Origin: Candidatus Tenebribacter davisii
Lineage (GTDB): Bacteria; Cloacimonadota; Cloacimonadia; Cloacimonadales; TCS61
Direction of reading: 5' to 3'
Assembly: GCA_030765535.1 (NCBI GenBank)
Contig: JAVCCH010000129.1
Location: 1 to 47,788 of the forward strand
DNA length: 47,788 nt
Shown here piece after piece: positions 36,488 through 42,921 of the stretch. Under the pieces are notes generated by a model that saw only the letters and a program-made list of their open reading frames with translations, ran no database searches and was not told the DNA's origin. The position numbers and the translations under genes are program-made. Within the stretch, counting starts at the first letter, position 1; each line of letters starts with the position of its first letter.

Positions 36488-37789
36488 ATGAAAAAAGTTG
36501 CTTCAATCACTTTTGGTTGTAAGATAAATCAATATGAGACCTCTTGCATTGTAGATGAATTTAACCAGGCAGGTTATGAAGATACTGATTTTAACAATCC
36601 TGCTGATGTCTATATAATAAATACTTGTACTGTTACTAATAGAACGGATTATAAAAGTAGAAATGCAATTCGGAAAGCGCTGGCGCAAAAGCAAATAAAT
36701 CCTTCGGTAAAGGTTGTAGTTACTGGTTGTTATTCACAAAGAAAAAAAGAAGAGATCATTGCATTGGGAGATGTTGATCTGATAGCTGATAATAACAGTA
36801 AAAGTAAGATCTTTTCCAAGCTCAATTCAGGGGATCTAATCTTTAAAGATATAAATGAACAACACAATTTTGACGAGATTTCAACAACCAGAATGATCGA
36901 TAAGACCAGAGCATTTATAAAAATACAGGATGGATGTGATTATTACTGTGCTTACTGTGCAATTCCGTATGCCAGGGGACATAGTAGAAGCAGCAAGAGA
37001 GAAAATGTTTTAAAACAAATTAAAAAATTAATTGATAATGGTTATAAAGAATTTGTCCTTGGCGGGATAAATCTTGGATTATATGGTGTAGAAGCAGGTT
37101 ATTCATTAGCAGAGTTGTTATATGAAATCGAGAAGATCGAAGGTGTAAAACTAATTAGGTTGAGTTCTATTGAACCACAGCTTTTTACTGATGAATTATT
37201 AGAATATTTAAAACAAAGTAAAAAAATATGTCATCATTTTCATATACCTCTGCAAGCGGGATGTGATGAGCTATTAACTAAAATGGGTAGGCGGTATACG
37301 ACTGCACAGTTTGAAAACACAATTAACAAACTGAGAACTATATTCCCTGATGTAGCTATTGGGATCGATGTAATAAGCGGTCTTCCCGGAGAGACCGATG
37401 AACTTTTCCAAAAAACACATCTATTTCTTACTAACCTTGATTTTACTTATCTACATGTATTTTCATATTCTAAAAGACCTGGAACCCGTGCTGAAAAAAT
37501 GAAAGATCATGTAAATGGTAAGATCATAAAACAGAGAAGTAATAAACTGATTGCCATCTCTGAAACTAAGCTGGGAAAATATATAGATTATATAATTAAA
37601 AATAAAATTGAACTTCAAGGTGTTATTGAACACAGAAAAAACGGGTATTGGACAGCGCTTTCTGATCATTATGTACGAGTTTATATAAACAGTAATGAGA
37701 ACCTTGAGAAAAAATATTTACATCTAACACCCGTTAGTAAAAATGATTATGGAATTGAAGCTAATATTATAGTGCGGGATATTAAATGA
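36488..37789 (+). CDS. mtaB: tRNA t6A37 C2-methylthiotransferase MtaB
   Basis: 433 residues of the MiaB/RimO radical-SAM methylthiotransferase family. The N-terminal domain has the MtaB signature SITFGCKINQYET (C11), NTCTVTNR and VVTGCYSQ, ligands for the auxiliary 4Fe-4S cluster. The radical-SAM motif is C150-C154-C157 in DGCDYYCAYCAIP. A short TRAM-like C-terminus follows. MtaB turns t6A37 into ms2t6A37 in tRNAs reading ANN codons. It overlaps the next gene by ATGA. There is no strong Shine-Dalgarno before its ATG. Confidence 0.93.
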   Translation: MKKVASITFGCKINQYETSCIVDEFNQAGYEDTDFNNPADVYIINTCTVTNRTDYKSRNAIRKALAQKQINPSVKVVVTGCYSQRKKEEIIALGDVDLIADNNSKSKIFSKLNSGDLIFKDINEQHNFDEISTTRMIDKTRAFIKIQDGCDYYCAYCAIPYARGHSRSSKRENVLKQIKKLIDNGYKEFVLGGINLGLYGVEAGYSLAELLYEIEKIEGVKLIRLSSIEPQLFTDELLEYLKQSKKICHHFHIPLQAGCDELLTKMGRRYTTAQFENTINKLRTIFPDVAIGIDVISGLPGETDELFQKTHLFLTNLDFTYLHVFSYSKRPGTRAEKMKDHVNGKIIKQRSNKLIAISETKLGKYIDYIIKNKIELQGVIEHRKNGYWTALSDHYVRVYINSNENLEKKYLHLTPVSKNDYGIEANIIVRDIK

Positions 37790-38502
37790 TAAAGATCAAG
37801 AATCTTTCAGTAAATTTTGGCGAGCAGGAGATACTGCAAAATATAGACCTTACAATTAAGGAAGATCAAATAACTGTAATTGTTGGGCAAAGTGGAACAG
37901 GAAAAAGTGTTTTAATGAAGTGTATTGAAGGTCTCATTGAACCATCAGCCGGATCGATAATTATAGATGAAAAAGATCTTTTTACATTAAATAAACTACA
38001 GAAAAATGAGGTTAGGAAGAAGATGGCAATGCTGTTCCAAGGTTCAGCATTACTGGATTCTCTAAATGTTTATCAGAATGTTGCTCTCCCAATTATTGAA
38101 CACAGGGATATCCCTGAAAAAGATGTACTGAAGGAAGTAATTGAGAAACTTGAACTAGTTGGATTGAAAGATGTTTTAACAAAAATGCCTTCAGAACTAA
38201 GTGGTGGTATGAAAAAGAGAGTTGCACTTGCCAGAGCAATTATCATGAAACCTAAATATATTATTTATGATGAACCAACTACAGGTCTTGATCCGATAAT
38301 AGCGGAAGAAATTTCCAATTTGATATTGAAACTGCAAAAGCAATATAAAGTAGCTTCTATAATTATAACTCATGATATGAATTGCATCAGAAAACTGAAA
38401 GGACACATAGCAATGATACATGATAAAAAAATAATTTTTGACGGAACTTTTAATGATTTCAATAATGATACAAGAAAAATAATAAGAGAATTTGTGAAAT
38501 AA
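37786..38502 (+). CDS. mlaF: MlaF-like ABC transporter ATPase
   Basis: 238 residues with the complete ABC ATPase set: Walker A GQSGTGKS (34-41), Q-loop MLFQGSALLDSLNV, signature LSGGMKKRVALARAI, Walker B IIYDEPTTGLDP and switch ITHD. The FQGSALLDSLNVYQNVALP segment and the following MCE gene identify it as the phospholipid-transport (MlaF/Ttg2A) type. It would power lipid exchange between inner and outer membranes. The usual MlaE permease gene is missing: the upstream neighbour, overlapping by four bases, is mtaB. The partner permease is presumably elsewhere in the genome. Confidence 0.88.
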   Translation: MIKIKNLSVNFGEQEILQNIDLTIKEDQITVIVGQSGTGKSVLMKCIEGLIEPSAGSIIIDEKDLFTLNKLQKNEVRKKMAMLFQGSALLDSLNVYQNVALPIIEHRDIPEKDVLKEVIEKLELVGLKDVLTKMPSELSGGMKKRVALARAIIMKPKYIIYDEPTTGLDPIIAEEISNLILKLQKQYKVASIIITHDMNCIRKLKGHIAMIHDKKIIFDGTFNDFNNDTRKIIREFVK

Positions 38503-38511
38503 GGAAAAGTT

Positions 38512-39411
38512 ATGAAATTTTATCAAAATAAAAAAAGTACAGAATTTAAAGTCGGACTATTTACAATACTTGCGATTGTTGTATTTGCTGCATCTTATAT
38601 GTGGTTTACTGAAATCTTGCATAATAAGGATATGACTGTCATAAAAGTTAAATTCCAAAATGCCGGGAATATTGAAGTTGGAAGTAGTGTAAGTGTGAAT
38701 GGAGTAAAGAAGGGACGGGTTAAGAAGATTCAAGTTGCTCAAGATGGTGTTGTTTTAGAACTCCAGGTAAAAATAGATTTCCCATTAAAGGATGGTACCC
38801 AATTTTCTGTAATTGAATCTAATCTTATGGGTGATGTGCAGGTAGAGATCATTCCATCCCCATCAGGCAAAGATATTAATATTGCTCAGACCCAAATCGG
38901 TGAGAAAAGGTATGGACTCATGAAGCTGGTTTCAGAGTTAAGCAGCGTTGTAGTAGAATTTCAAACAATAATGAATAGAATTGCCGGGGATGGAAATATT
39001 GTGATGCGGATAGATTCAGTACTTGATACTACACAAGTAGTTATGAATAAGATCAATAATAATTTAGATAATAATGCAGAAGATTTCGAGAAACTTATTA
39101 GCAATGCAAGTCAACTTACTGTTAAGCTGAATACACTAGTTACAGCTAATGAAAAAAATATCTCTAATTCGATGGAAAAATCTTCAGAGGTGATCACTTC
39201 TATCAACTCTACTTTGAATGATATCCAAAAAACTTCAGGAAGTATACGAAATTTAACTAACAAAATACAAAGTGAAAATAGTAGTTTGAATAGATTAATA
39301 AGTGATGATGTATTATACAAGAATCTCTTACGATCGTCAGCAAGGATGGATTCATTATTACAAGATATCAAGAAAAATCCTAAAAGATATTTCAATATCA
39401 AAATTCTTTAG
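38512..39411 (+). CDS. MCE-domain (MlaD-like) lipid-binding protein
   Basis: 299 residues: a membrane anchor (residues ~13-31), one MCE domain (about 38-125; VKFQNAGNIEVGSSVSVNGVKKGRVKKI, then SNLMGDVQVEII) and a ~150-residue helical, Asn/Ser-rich tail (about 140-290) predicted to be coiled coil. MCE proteins form hexameric rings or tunnels that carry lipid through the periplasm. It starts nine bases after mlaF, with AAGGAA upstream, and the outer-membrane protein gene follows nine bases after its stop, suggesting one functional unit. Confidence 0.9.
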   Translation: MKFYQNKKSTEFKVGLFTILAIVVFAASYMWFTEILHNKDMTVIKVKFQNAGNIEVGSSVSVNGVKKGRVKKIQVAQDGVVLELQVKIDFPLKDGTQFSVIESNLMGDVQVEIIPSPSGKDINIAQTQIGEKRYGLMKLVSELSSVVVEFQTIMNRIAGDGNIVMRIDSVLDTTQVVMNKINNNLDNNAEDFEKLISNASQLTVKLNTLVTANEKNISNSMEKSSEVITSINSTLNDIQKTSGSIRNLTNKIQSENSSLNRLISDDVLYKNLLRSSARMDSLLQDIKKNPKRYFNIKIL

Positions 39412-39420
39412 GGAGAATTT

Positions 39421-42400
39421 ATGAAAAAAAACATTTTTGCGATCTTGTTAACTCTCATTTCATTGCAGTTACTTGCGTATAATTTCGGTAAAAATAAAAT
39501 TCAGAATTCTAAGATCAAGTGGGAAAAAATAGAATCACTTCATTTCGATATTTATTATCCTAACCAGAATGAAGAATTTGGTAAACTTGCCGTTCTTATT
39601 GCTGAAGAAGCATATTATCATATTAAAGAAGATTTTAAACAACCCGTAATGCATAGAATTCCAATAATACTGTATAAATCACACGATGATTTTGAAGCTA
39701 CAAATGTAATAAGTTCACTTTTAGGGGAAGGAGTGGGAGGTTTTACAGAAACATCTCATAATAAGGTTGCAGTTCCATTTGATGGCGATTATAAAAAAAT
39801 GGAAGAGACTCTTACCCACGAACTTACACATGCTTATGTTAATGAAATAAATAATAATAGAAGTAAATTGATCACAATGAATAATCTGCCATTCTGGTTT
39901 CAAGAAGGATTACCGGAATTTGAATCGATCAATGGTAAATCAGTTTATAACAATATGTTTGTAATTGACCTGTTGATAAATGACAGGATCGGCAATCTGG
40001 AAATGATCGGTGGCTACTATGCTTACAGATTGGGTGAATCATTTCTCTGCTATATAGAAGAAGAATATGATCGTAATAAAGTGATGGAATTATTCTATGC
40101 TGTAAGGTATAATAAAAATACTGATGCTGCTTTTAAAAAGGTTTTTGGAGAAGAATTTGAATATGTTCAACTTCGGTGGAAAAACTTTCTAAAAAGAAAA
40201 TACTATCCACAATTTGCAGCTTTTGATATCCCAAACGAAACATTCTCCAGAATGACAGAACATAATAAAGATGGATCATCACTTAATTATGCACCCAGAT
40301 TTTCTCCCGATGGAAATAGTTATATCTACTTTTCTAATAGAAATTTGAAAACTGATATATGGCGGGGTTCCGTTCTGGGACTAACTAAGAATAAAAAGAT
40401 ATTAAGTGGTGAATCAACTGGAGATTATGAAGAATTCCATTATTTACGTAATAATTTAGCCTGGTTTCCAGACGGTAAAAATTATGCATTAGTATCTAAA
40501 ACCTCATTTGGAGATAAAATCTATATTATAGATCATAAAACTGGTAAAGCTGTTTCCAATATGGAATTTACAGAGTTTGATGCGATCTTTGAAATGGATA
40601 TTTCAAATGATGGAACTAAAATAGTATTTTCCGGTCAGAAAAAATTAAAATGTGATATCTATACCTATGATCTTATCACACAAGAGATTATAGCAATAAC
40701 TGATGATCAATATTTAGATAGTCAGCCCCATTGGTCTCCTGATGATCAAAAGATCGTTTTTACTTCTGAAAGAACTCTTAATCCGGAAGCTAAAGCTGTA
40801 CAGATCTTCAGCAAACTAAAATCAGATATTTTTTATTATGATCTTCAACTGGAAAAATTCTTTCAGGTAACAAATGATCCACAAAATAACAACTTTCCAA
40901 TTTGGGATAAAACAGGTGAGAGGATAATTTTCGTTAGTGAATCTGAATTTACATTAAATTGTGATGTGATTGAAATAGCTTCAGGAATGAGAGCGACGAT
41001 AACAAATGTGCACGGTGGCATATTTGCACCGGATATTTCCTTGGATAATAACGAACTAATATTTTCCGTCTTTTTCAATGGAGGTTGGGATGTATATAAT
41101 TTAACAAATCCACTGGAGAATTTAGAATATATACAAGGTACATTACCAAATGAATATAATTTTATTGATGATTTTTATGAAATATTCAAGTTAGATCGTT
41201 ATCAAGTATTCGGAAAACAGAATAAGAAATTTTTGAAGGAATTACCGGAATATTCTCATAATGTTACAAAAATTGACTTCAGAAATTTCGCACATACAGA
41301 TAGTTTGAATAAAGCATACAATCGAGATCTGGATAAAAGACCAACTGAGAATAGAGAACCTTTGAGTTCTCCTTATAAACCAAAATTTGCCTTAGATTAT
41401 CTTTGGGGAGGAGCTGCTTATTCCCCTTCTAGCGGAACATATGCTCAATTGCAGTTTGGTCTTTCTGATTTGATGGGAAATCATGCAATTGGAGTGCAAC
41501 TGGGTATTGCTGGTGACTTGAGCTCATCAGATATTGTGCTTACTTATATGAATTTAAAAGGCAGGATAGATCATGGGTATGGAGGCTTTTATCTGAGTGA
41601 TGAATGGATTTACCAGATTTTGAATGAGGTTGGAGATTCTGATTATATGAGAGAGCGGGAATATCGTTTTGGCGCTTATTCCATACTCCGTTATCCCTTT
41701 AATAAATTTTGGAGATTAGATCTTGAAAATATCTTTTCTACTGAGATCATAAAAAGAGACTGGTGGGATGGGAATGATTGGAAGCTGGAATATCTTGAGC
41801 CTGATTTTGCTGAATACTATGATCTGAAGACTGATGAATCCGAATATATATATGCACCTCAATTCACGTTAGTGCATGATAATGCGATCTATGGTAGTGT
41901 GGGACCAATCTCCGGGTCACGTAAAGCTCTTCTCCTTAATCACAGTTTTTCTACAGAGAAGGATTACACAATTGTTTTTGCAGATCTAAGAAAATACTAT
42001 TTCTTTGAAAAAAGATATGCTCTTGCCTTTAGATTAAGCGGAGGTACGATCCAGGGAGATACAAATCAAAAATTCACAATGGATTATTATAATGGAGTAC
42101 GAGGACTGACAGAAGATTATTATGGCAGCAATAAATTCCAGTTTTCAGCTGAACTAAGGTATCCATTTATTGATCATCTGCAAATGTCATTTCCTTTCCC
42201 CTTATACTTTTATCAGATACGTGGAAGTGCATTTATCGATGCAGGAAGTATATGGGATAATGATGATAATTTAAAATTAGTTGAGAATGAAAAATTAGAG
42301 GATTTAAAACTCTCTGTAGGATTCGGTCCCAGGCTGAACTTGGGGTATTTCGTTGTAAAATTTGATGTCGCCTGGAATACTGATCTGGAAAATTTTAGTA

Positions 42401-42438
42401 AACCGACTTATTTTATAAGTTTAACACCAGATTTTTAG
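39421..42438 (+). CDS. Outer-membrane protein fusing a gluzincin protease domain, a PD40/TolB-like propeller and a beta-barrel
   Basis: 1005 residues with a signal peptide (MKKNIFAILLTLISLQLLA). Residues ~25-265 resemble a peptidase-MA gluzincin: the zinc motif is H133-E-L-T-H137 with the likely third ligand E162 in WFQEGLPEF. Residues ~285-600 hold about six PD40/WD40-like blades (YAPRFSPDGNSYIYFSNR, HWSPDDQKIVFTSE, IWDKTGERIIFVS). From ~655 to the end, alternating strands with an Omp85/surface-antigen look (NGVRGLTEDYYGSNKFQFSA, ELRYPFIDHLQMSFP) end in a C-terminal Phe (ISLTPDF), as in outer-membrane barrels. I infer a barrel-anchored protease facing periplasm or surface. Its place after the MCE gene suggests envelope lipid or protein maintenance; this is unproven. 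Confidence 0.82.
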   Translation: MKKNIFAILLTLISLQLLAYNFGKNKIQNSKIKWEKIESLHFDIYYPNQNEEFGKLAVLIAEEAYYHIKEDFKQPVMHRIPIILYKSHDDFEATNVISSLLGEGVGGFTETSHNKVAVPFDGDYKKMEETLTHELTHAYVNEINNNRSKLITMNNLPFWFQEGLPEFESINGKSVYNNMFVIDLLINDRIGNLEMIGGYYAYRLGESFLCYIEEEYDRNKVMELFYAVRYNKNTDAAFKKVFGEEFEYVQLRWKNFLKRKYYPQFAAFDIPNETFSRMTEHNKDGSSLNYAPRFSPDGNSYIYFSNRNLKTDIWRGSVLGLTKNKKILSGESTGDYEEFHYLRNNLAWFPDGKNYALVSKTSFGDKIYIIDHKTGKAVSNMEFTEFDAIFEMDISNDGTKIVFSGQKKLKCDIYTYDLITQEIIAITDDQYLDSQPHWSPDDQKIVFTSERTLNPEAKAVQIFSKLKSDIFYYDLQLEKFFQVTNDPQNNNFPIWDKTGERIIFVSESEFTLNCDVIEIASGMRATITNVHGGIFAPDISLDNNELIFSVFFNGGWDVYNLTNPLENLEYIQGTLPNEYNFIDDFYEIFKLDRYQVFGKQNKKFLKELPEYSHNVTKIDFRNFAHTDSLNKAYNRDLDKRPTENREPLSSPYKPKFALDYLWGGAAYSPSSGTYAQLQFGLSDLMGNHAIGVQLGIAGDLSSSDIVLTYMNLKGRIDHGYGGFYLSDEWIYQILNEVGDSDYMREREYRFGAYSILRYPFNKFWRLDLENIFSTEIIKRDWWDGNDWKLEYLEPDFAEYYDLKTDESEYIYAPQFTLVHDNAIYGSVGPISGSRKALLLNHSFSTEKDYTIVFADLRKYYFFEKRYALAFRLSGGTIQGDTNQKFTMDYYNGVRGLTEDYYGSNKFQFSAELRYPFIDHLQMSFPFPLYFYQIRGSAFIDAGSIWDNDDNLKLVENEKLEDLKLSVGFGPRLNLGYFVVKFDVAWNTDLENFSKPTYFISLTPDF

Positions 42439-42477: not shown

Positions 42478-42921
42478 TTAATCTTTATCTATTAGCTTAC
42501 ATTCATCAAGAATAACATGTATTTCAGAGATATGTCGGATTTTGCCAACAAAATAGATTTCATGTCCTTTATTCAAAGAGGATGCAGGACCATCTTCATC
42601 AAACCAAGCAGATATTTCATTCATTTTAATTGATATTTTTCCATAAGGAAAGCTACCCATGTCTTCAATAATACCTTTATATTTTATGTATTTCTCATAG
42701 TACAATTTTTCAGCTAACTGCTGTGCTTGATAATCATTATCAATCTTATTATATCAAATAATAAGTTCTCCTGGAGTAATCTCAATAATTTCTTTATTAT
42801 CACTACTATCACTAGTTATATAATCGTATAATATTGGTAATGAAAAAGTTAGAAATGCACCGATCACAGCACCAATAATTGCCGCCAGAATTGTTATTTT
42901 AATAGAAATATCTATTTTCAT
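42478..42921 (-). pseudogene. Membrane-anchored OB-fold (tRNA_anti-like) gene interrupted by an in-frame TGA
   Basis: From the ATG at 42921, with AAAGGAG ten bases upstream, the frame runs 55 codons, meets TGA (42756-42754), then continues in the same frame to a stop at 42480-42478, 147 codon positions in all. Residues 1-55 have a membrane anchor (ITILAAIIGAVIGAFLTFSL) and EIIEITPGELII. Beyond the TGA, YNKIDNDYQAQQLAEKLYYE, IKYKGIIEDMG and VILDECKLID fit the tRNA_anti-like OB-fold family, whose members often carry an N-terminal anchor followed by a comparable linker. I read it as a nonsense-mutated gene; programmed readthrough is the alternative. A TTG inside (42705) could restart translation of the OB fold alone. 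Confidence 0.7.

Follow-up and report, generated by a model that had tools for sequence, protein, structure and literature searches.

We have found that the gene at 39421-42438 (+) of the 47,788-nucleotide stretch of Candidatus Tenebribacter davisii DNA analysed here (the window) encodes a 1005-aa fusion of a zinc peptidase domain, a propeller and an outer-membrane barrel, that this fusion is nearly universal in Cloacimonadota, and that an MCE lipid-transport gene lies directly upstream of it in most of the Cloacimonadota genomes with upstream sequence. We tentatively favour the explanation that this Omp85 protein, which lacks POTRA domains and would carry its own periplasmic protease, is a partner of lipid traffic at the outer membrane, a function that we infer from the barrel, the putative docking propeller, the enzyme arm and the repeated lipid-transport neighbours taken together.

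The protein begins with a signal peptide (39421..39477 (+), residues ~1-19), which by eye is of the SPase I type and shows no lipobox; the N-termini of its relatives are similar, and AlphaFold places a helix of low confidence at residues 2-18. The following domain (39520..40221 (+), residues ~34-267) is predicted to be a clan MA gluzincin, as the HELTH motif (39817-39831, H133-E-L-T-H137) and the downstream Glu of the zinc motif (E162, 39904-39906) lie in a zincin-type alpha/beta domain of the AlphaFold model. Pfam detects Peptidase_MA_2 at residues 73-258 just over the cut-off (E 7.5e-8), and the domain modelled separately is matched by Foldseek to M9 collagenase and M1 aminopeptidase structures, i.e., to gluzincins. 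An M48 (BepA-like) identity was considered and rejected: Peptidase_M48 is found in 1 of 56 members and Peptidase_MA_2 in all 56. Next comes the TolB-like propeller (40261..41106 (+), residues ~281-562), with PD40 repeats in Pfam (E 8.4e-18), model strands within 289-562 that we read as six blades, and TolB as the top match of both Foldseek and the PDB sequence search. A disordered linker (41140..41337 (+), residues 574-639, pLDDT <50) leads to the 16-strand Omp85-type barrel (41386..42435 (+), residues 656-1005; AlphaFold strands 656-1003), which ends in Phe1005, carries the Pfam Omp85 match at 849-988 (E 2e-9) and is matched by Foldseek to Sam50, BamA, TamA and FhaC. The full-length model has a pLDDT of 82.9 and a pTM of 0.83. 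No POTRA domain is matched by Pfam, and the modelled periplasmic part leaves no element for one. That is, the predicted structure places the protein in the Omp85 superfamily by its barrel, but not in the BamA/TamA type, which has at least one POTRA domain. An earlier sequence-only reading had given the frame, its strand and length, the positions of HELTH and E162, about six PD40-like blades and an Omp85-like barrel ending in Phe, all of which are borne out; the structure prediction it proposed as a check returns both the C-terminal 16-strand barrel and the gluzincin fold around HELTH.

The fusion is matched in 117 of the 125 Cloacimonadota genomes, and in 70 of the 71 genomes of good quality (completeness >=90%, contamination <=5%). 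A species collection of genome contigs was further scanned with an alignment whose first sequence was a divergent copy of the fusion, and 318 stretches encoding relatives were obtained, the best 80 of which were kept as loci. Among these best 80 of 318 are, as labelled, Neomarinimicrobiota, KSB1, Calditrichota, LCP-89, Ignavibacteriota, Chlorobiota and Kapaibacteria, and also Zixibacteria, Latescibacterota, Gemmatimonadota, Eisenbacteria, Chitinivibrionales and Poribacteria. In a set of 40 diverse members, Pfam finds Peptidase_MA_2 and PD40 in all 40 and Omp85 in 24. H133, E134, H137 and E162 do not vary in either of two alignments, one with 30 members and one with 56, and HExxH together with PxWxxEG is present in 76 of the 78 loci from other phyla among the best 80; of the two others, one (L171) starts within the gene, and the other (L175) has an over-long reading frame of which the first part was searched. 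The fusion architecture is thus conserved beyond chance, and is no local oddity of the window.

Two placements in this sample depart from the taxonomic labels. One Cloacimonadota metagenome-assembled genome (G002) has a second fusion copy, 30% identical (L070 / L098:2015-5176), which groups inside Neomarinimicrobiota and shares with them an upstream thymidylate-kinase-like gene, indicating either transfer or a mis-binned contig. In addition, a Calditrichaeota-labelled fusion (L154) nests among Zixibacteria sequences in the tree.

Part of this architecture has a name already. Heinz and Lithgow described a WD40-Omp85 subfamily in 2014 (PMC4104836), which, as far as the available part of that paper goes, resembles the fusion in its N-terminal TolB-like propeller, its Omp85 barrel and its want of POTRA, while the zinc peptidase and the MCE linkage are features of the fusion here. 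Neither 'peptidase' nor 'PD40' is found in its main text, and its proteins may be identical with the members studied here, their N-terminal domain having gone unremarked. A literature search on 'WD40-Omp85' found the 2014 paper alone; among the papers from a wider search none is, judging by title and abstract, evidently about a peptidase-propeller-Omp85 protein, and a search by domain names found none. The propeller-Omp85 combination is therefore known, and it is the N-terminal protease and the MCE link that we have not found in the literature. The suggestion from the sequence that the combination is little described has to be narrowed accordingly: with WD40-Omp85 already named and the triple architecture widespread in FCB-type phyla, the combination is not rare, and what stands is that neither the protease nor the link to MCE turned up in the papers searched. 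An 'Omp85-metalloprotease' group also exists by name, defined by PF00149 in PMC4104836. PF00149 is a metallophosphoesterase family, whereas the protein here seems to join a genuine zinc protease to an Omp85 barrel.

Other systems share single elements with the fusion. PlpD, a patatin-Omp85 protein, likewise joins a periplasmic enzyme to an Omp85 barrel with a possible lipid role, its N-terminal enzyme being periplasmic and the membrane lipids of a plpD-minus strain being altered (PMC11116518), but its enzyme is patatin-like (lipase-type) and it has no propeller, whereas the fusion has a zinc peptidase and a propeller. In the TamA-TamB pair an Omp85 barrel is also partnered with an envelope-spanning protein, and TamB adjoins the fusion in Eisenbacteria; unlike the fusion, however, TamA has POTRA domains and neither peptidase nor propeller.

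In the window, the fusion gene is the last of a group in the order mtaB-mlaF-mce-fusion. The 3' end of mtaB (36488..37789 (+), tRNA t6A methylthiotransferase, NCBIfam TIGR01579 above cut-off) overlaps by 4 bp the gene of an MlaF-like ABC ATPase (37786..38502 (+); ABC_tran 1.5e-34; best NCBIfam match MlaF, 5.3e-59, below the model cut-off). After a gap of 9 bp follows the gene of the MCE (MlaD-like) protein (38512..39411 (+), 299 aa; MlaD 5.6e-13), and a second gap of 9 bp, with a Shine-Dalgarno-like AGGGAGA inside it, separates this from the fusion, just as the nine-base distance had been read. The MCE protein has one hydrophobic segment (~14-32) and an MCE domain at 43-115 according to hydropathy and Pfam, and its C-terminal half, with few Gly/Pro, is probably helical. 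Pfam matches no barrel domain in its 299 aa; the barrel sits on the neighbouring fusion. As mtaB is in the gene group but probably outside the shared function, neighbours here need not share function. Consensus scans found no terminator-like site 3' of the fusion, and promoter-like sites are as frequent as in shuffles. Beyond the fusion, at 42481-42921 (-), lies a short reading frame that is interrupted by one internal stop and has a hydrophobic segment at its N-terminus; it may be a broken gene.

Across Cloacimonadota, an MCE gene is directly upstream of the fusion in at least 78 of the 84 genomes with upstream sequence (50 by analysis of reading frames and profiles, 28 by count from coordinates); in the other six (G011, G043, G050, G053, G117 and G119) upstream sequence is present with no MCE there. 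The MCE linkage, whose conservation had been proposed as a check, is hence kept across the phylum. The order mtaB-mlaF-mce-fusion is seen in the family of the window (f1) and in f13, a family of the same class and a different order; several other families keep the mce-fusion pair alone, with mlaF gone and the flanking genes different, and in f9 the transporter is encoded but not adjacent to the fusion.

Outside Cloacimonadota, MlaE is directly 3' of the fusion in seven loci (L109, L110, L114, L115, L116, L120 and L123), with MlaF next in 5 of the 7; TamB is 5' of it in an Eisenbacteria clade (four loci by Pfam, a fifth by sequence clustering), and LptF/G is 3' of it in L102, where L104 has a gene of equal length at the corresponding position. 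In most Zixibacteria the upstream gene is MurA, and in the tree of 96 members a lipid-transport neighbour is lacking in 61 of the 75 rows that fall outside the Cloacimonadota clade. On this tree the neighbour labels need 9 changes, compared with 27.8 in shuffles, though relatedness alone can cluster labels. TamB was rejected as a universal partner, being absent by Pfam from the genome of the window and patchy in Cloacimonadota.

The permease of the fusion-linked system is probably encoded elsewhere. The genome of the window (G000) has two MlaE genes: one, on contig C60, is near a second MCE and belongs to a second MCE system (G000:C60:15861-19863), whose long MlaE carries an N-terminal extension of ~140 aa before the MlaE domain, and the other stands alone on C169. 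In four genomes (G051, G076, G081 and G083) the single MCE is the fusion-linked one and is accompanied by one short MlaE, while in G011, G117 and G119 the single MCE shares its contig with a long MlaE, no short MlaE is found, and the fusion is kept. This co-occurrence makes the short unlinked MlaE the probable permease partner of the fusion-linked MCE; in the window MlaF and MCE are adjacent, and the MlaE likely to go with them lies apart, on contig C169. One genome (G066) breaks the pairing, with a fusion-linked MCE and a long MlaE only; the compared genomes are drafts, in which single absences weigh little. No MlaA is found in any of the 125 Cloacimonadota genomes. At the second MCE locus, the adjacent gene of 302 aa has no match in Pfam, and a PqiC-like partner there is thus unsupported.

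Based on these results, we suggest how the fusion could act in lipid traffic. Its barrel would lie in the outer membrane, with the propeller as a docking platform that carries the zinc peptidase on a presumably periplasmic arm. In Cloacimonadota it would partner an inner-membrane transporter in which the adjacent MlaF and MCE join with the unlinked short MlaE; the stalk of MCE would span the periplasm as far as the propeller or the barrel, and through this contact a lipid could enter or leave the outer membrane, while the peptidase might act on a partner or a misassembled substrate, trimming or removing it. PlpD (PMC11116518) speaks for such a reading by its periplasmic enzyme and by the altered lipids of the plpD-minus strain. 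Against this, the cargo of known Omp85 proteins is mostly protein rather than lipid.

This suggestion is of interest because FCB bacteria have MCE transporters but an MlaD without the outer-membrane barrel present on long MlaD elsewhere (PMC10665443), and MlaA is missing from Cloacimonadota; a conserved barrel encoded directly beside MCE is a concrete candidate for the acceptor or donor of lipids at the outer-membrane end of the route. In Veillonella parvula, MlaE, MlaF and MCE similarly occur without MlaA and MlaC, and a barrel is proposed at the far end (PMC10665443), but there it is on the long MlaD itself, whereas here a separate Omp85-type barrel stands beside a barrel-less MCE. A more specific proposal, which we consider rather unlikely as it stands, is that the fusion replaces MlaA, or the barrel of long MlaD, at the missing outer-membrane end of MCE lipid transport, both in Cloacimonadota and in other FCB bacteria, as an Omp85 lipid port under the control of its own zinc protease. 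The role of outer-membrane station of an MCE route had been offered from the sequence as well. The conserved linkage speaks for it, but it cannot be the whole function, since G011, G117 and G119 keep the fusion without a linked MCE or short MlaE and most members outside Cloacimonadota have no lipid neighbour; the loss of the fusion-linked transporter in some genomes that keep the fusion also means that the coupling is not obligatory.

The same observation brings in a close rival, which we rank second and regard as possible though less probable than the lipid-traffic partner: the fusion may be a machine for outer-membrane protein assembly and quality control, and a barrel-anchored quality-control protease had likewise been suggested from the sequence. 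In one polypeptide it would take on the work of the zinc peptidase BepA, of the propeller protein BamB and of an Omp85 barrel, inserting or releasing outer-membrane proteins and degrading failed intermediates, and its linkage to lipid genes would reflect shared envelope homeostasis. Being near-universal and outliving the transporter, the fusion is more conserved than the transporter, like a housekeeping assembly factor, and this suits a general role of such kind. Heinz and Lithgow proposed WD40-Omp85 as a BamA-BamB-like platform (PMC4104836), and BepA, an M48 periplasmic zinc metallopeptidase that works beside an Omp85 barrel, acts on LptD at the BAM complex, either promoting or degrading it (PMC8423444), although it is a separate soluble protein and the fusion has a Peptidase_MA_2 domain with a fold closer to M9/M1. 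On the other hand, the same genome has a stronger and separate Omp85 match (G000:C47, E 6.5e-57), likely BamA, the fusion is without POTRA by Pfam and model, and its recurrent neighbours are lipid-transport genes. The two readings overlap, because the lipid route could itself be what a quality-control factor acts on.

It is improbable that the linkage is by descent only, that is, that the core envelope role of the fusion has nothing to do with MCE and the two genes have simply remained neighbours. The Cloacimonadota members do form one clade, so that their MCE linkage may have a single origin, and most members in other phyla lack such linkage; however, the MCE-fusion pair persists where the genes around it, even mlaF, change, and MlaE/F and TamB neighbours appear in separate lineages of the tree. 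Protein- or amino-acid-fermenting lifestyles are plausible for Cloacimonadota, and the peptidase fold resembles M9 collagenase domains, both of which would suit a barrel that carries the peptidase-propeller arm out to the cell surface, there to degrade external protein. Such a surface protease is nevertheless highly improbable, as PlpD, long assumed to do likewise, keeps its enzyme domain in the periplasm (PMC11116518), and the single-copy, core-gene conservation of the fusion and its lipid-transport neighbours are unlike an exoenzyme.

Finally, two other genes recur around the fusion. A secreted-looking protein of ~423 aa, with no match in Pfam, NCBIfam or PDB, is encoded upstream of mce-fusion in 13 Cloacimonadota loci (e.g., L058:5820-7088 (+)) and downstream of fusion-MlaE-MlaF in L114, L116 and L120. 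A protein of ~840 aa, with FG-GAP/VCBS-like repeats recognized by eye, is encoded 3' of the fusion in 11 loci of f13 (L078:9852-12380 and 10 others).
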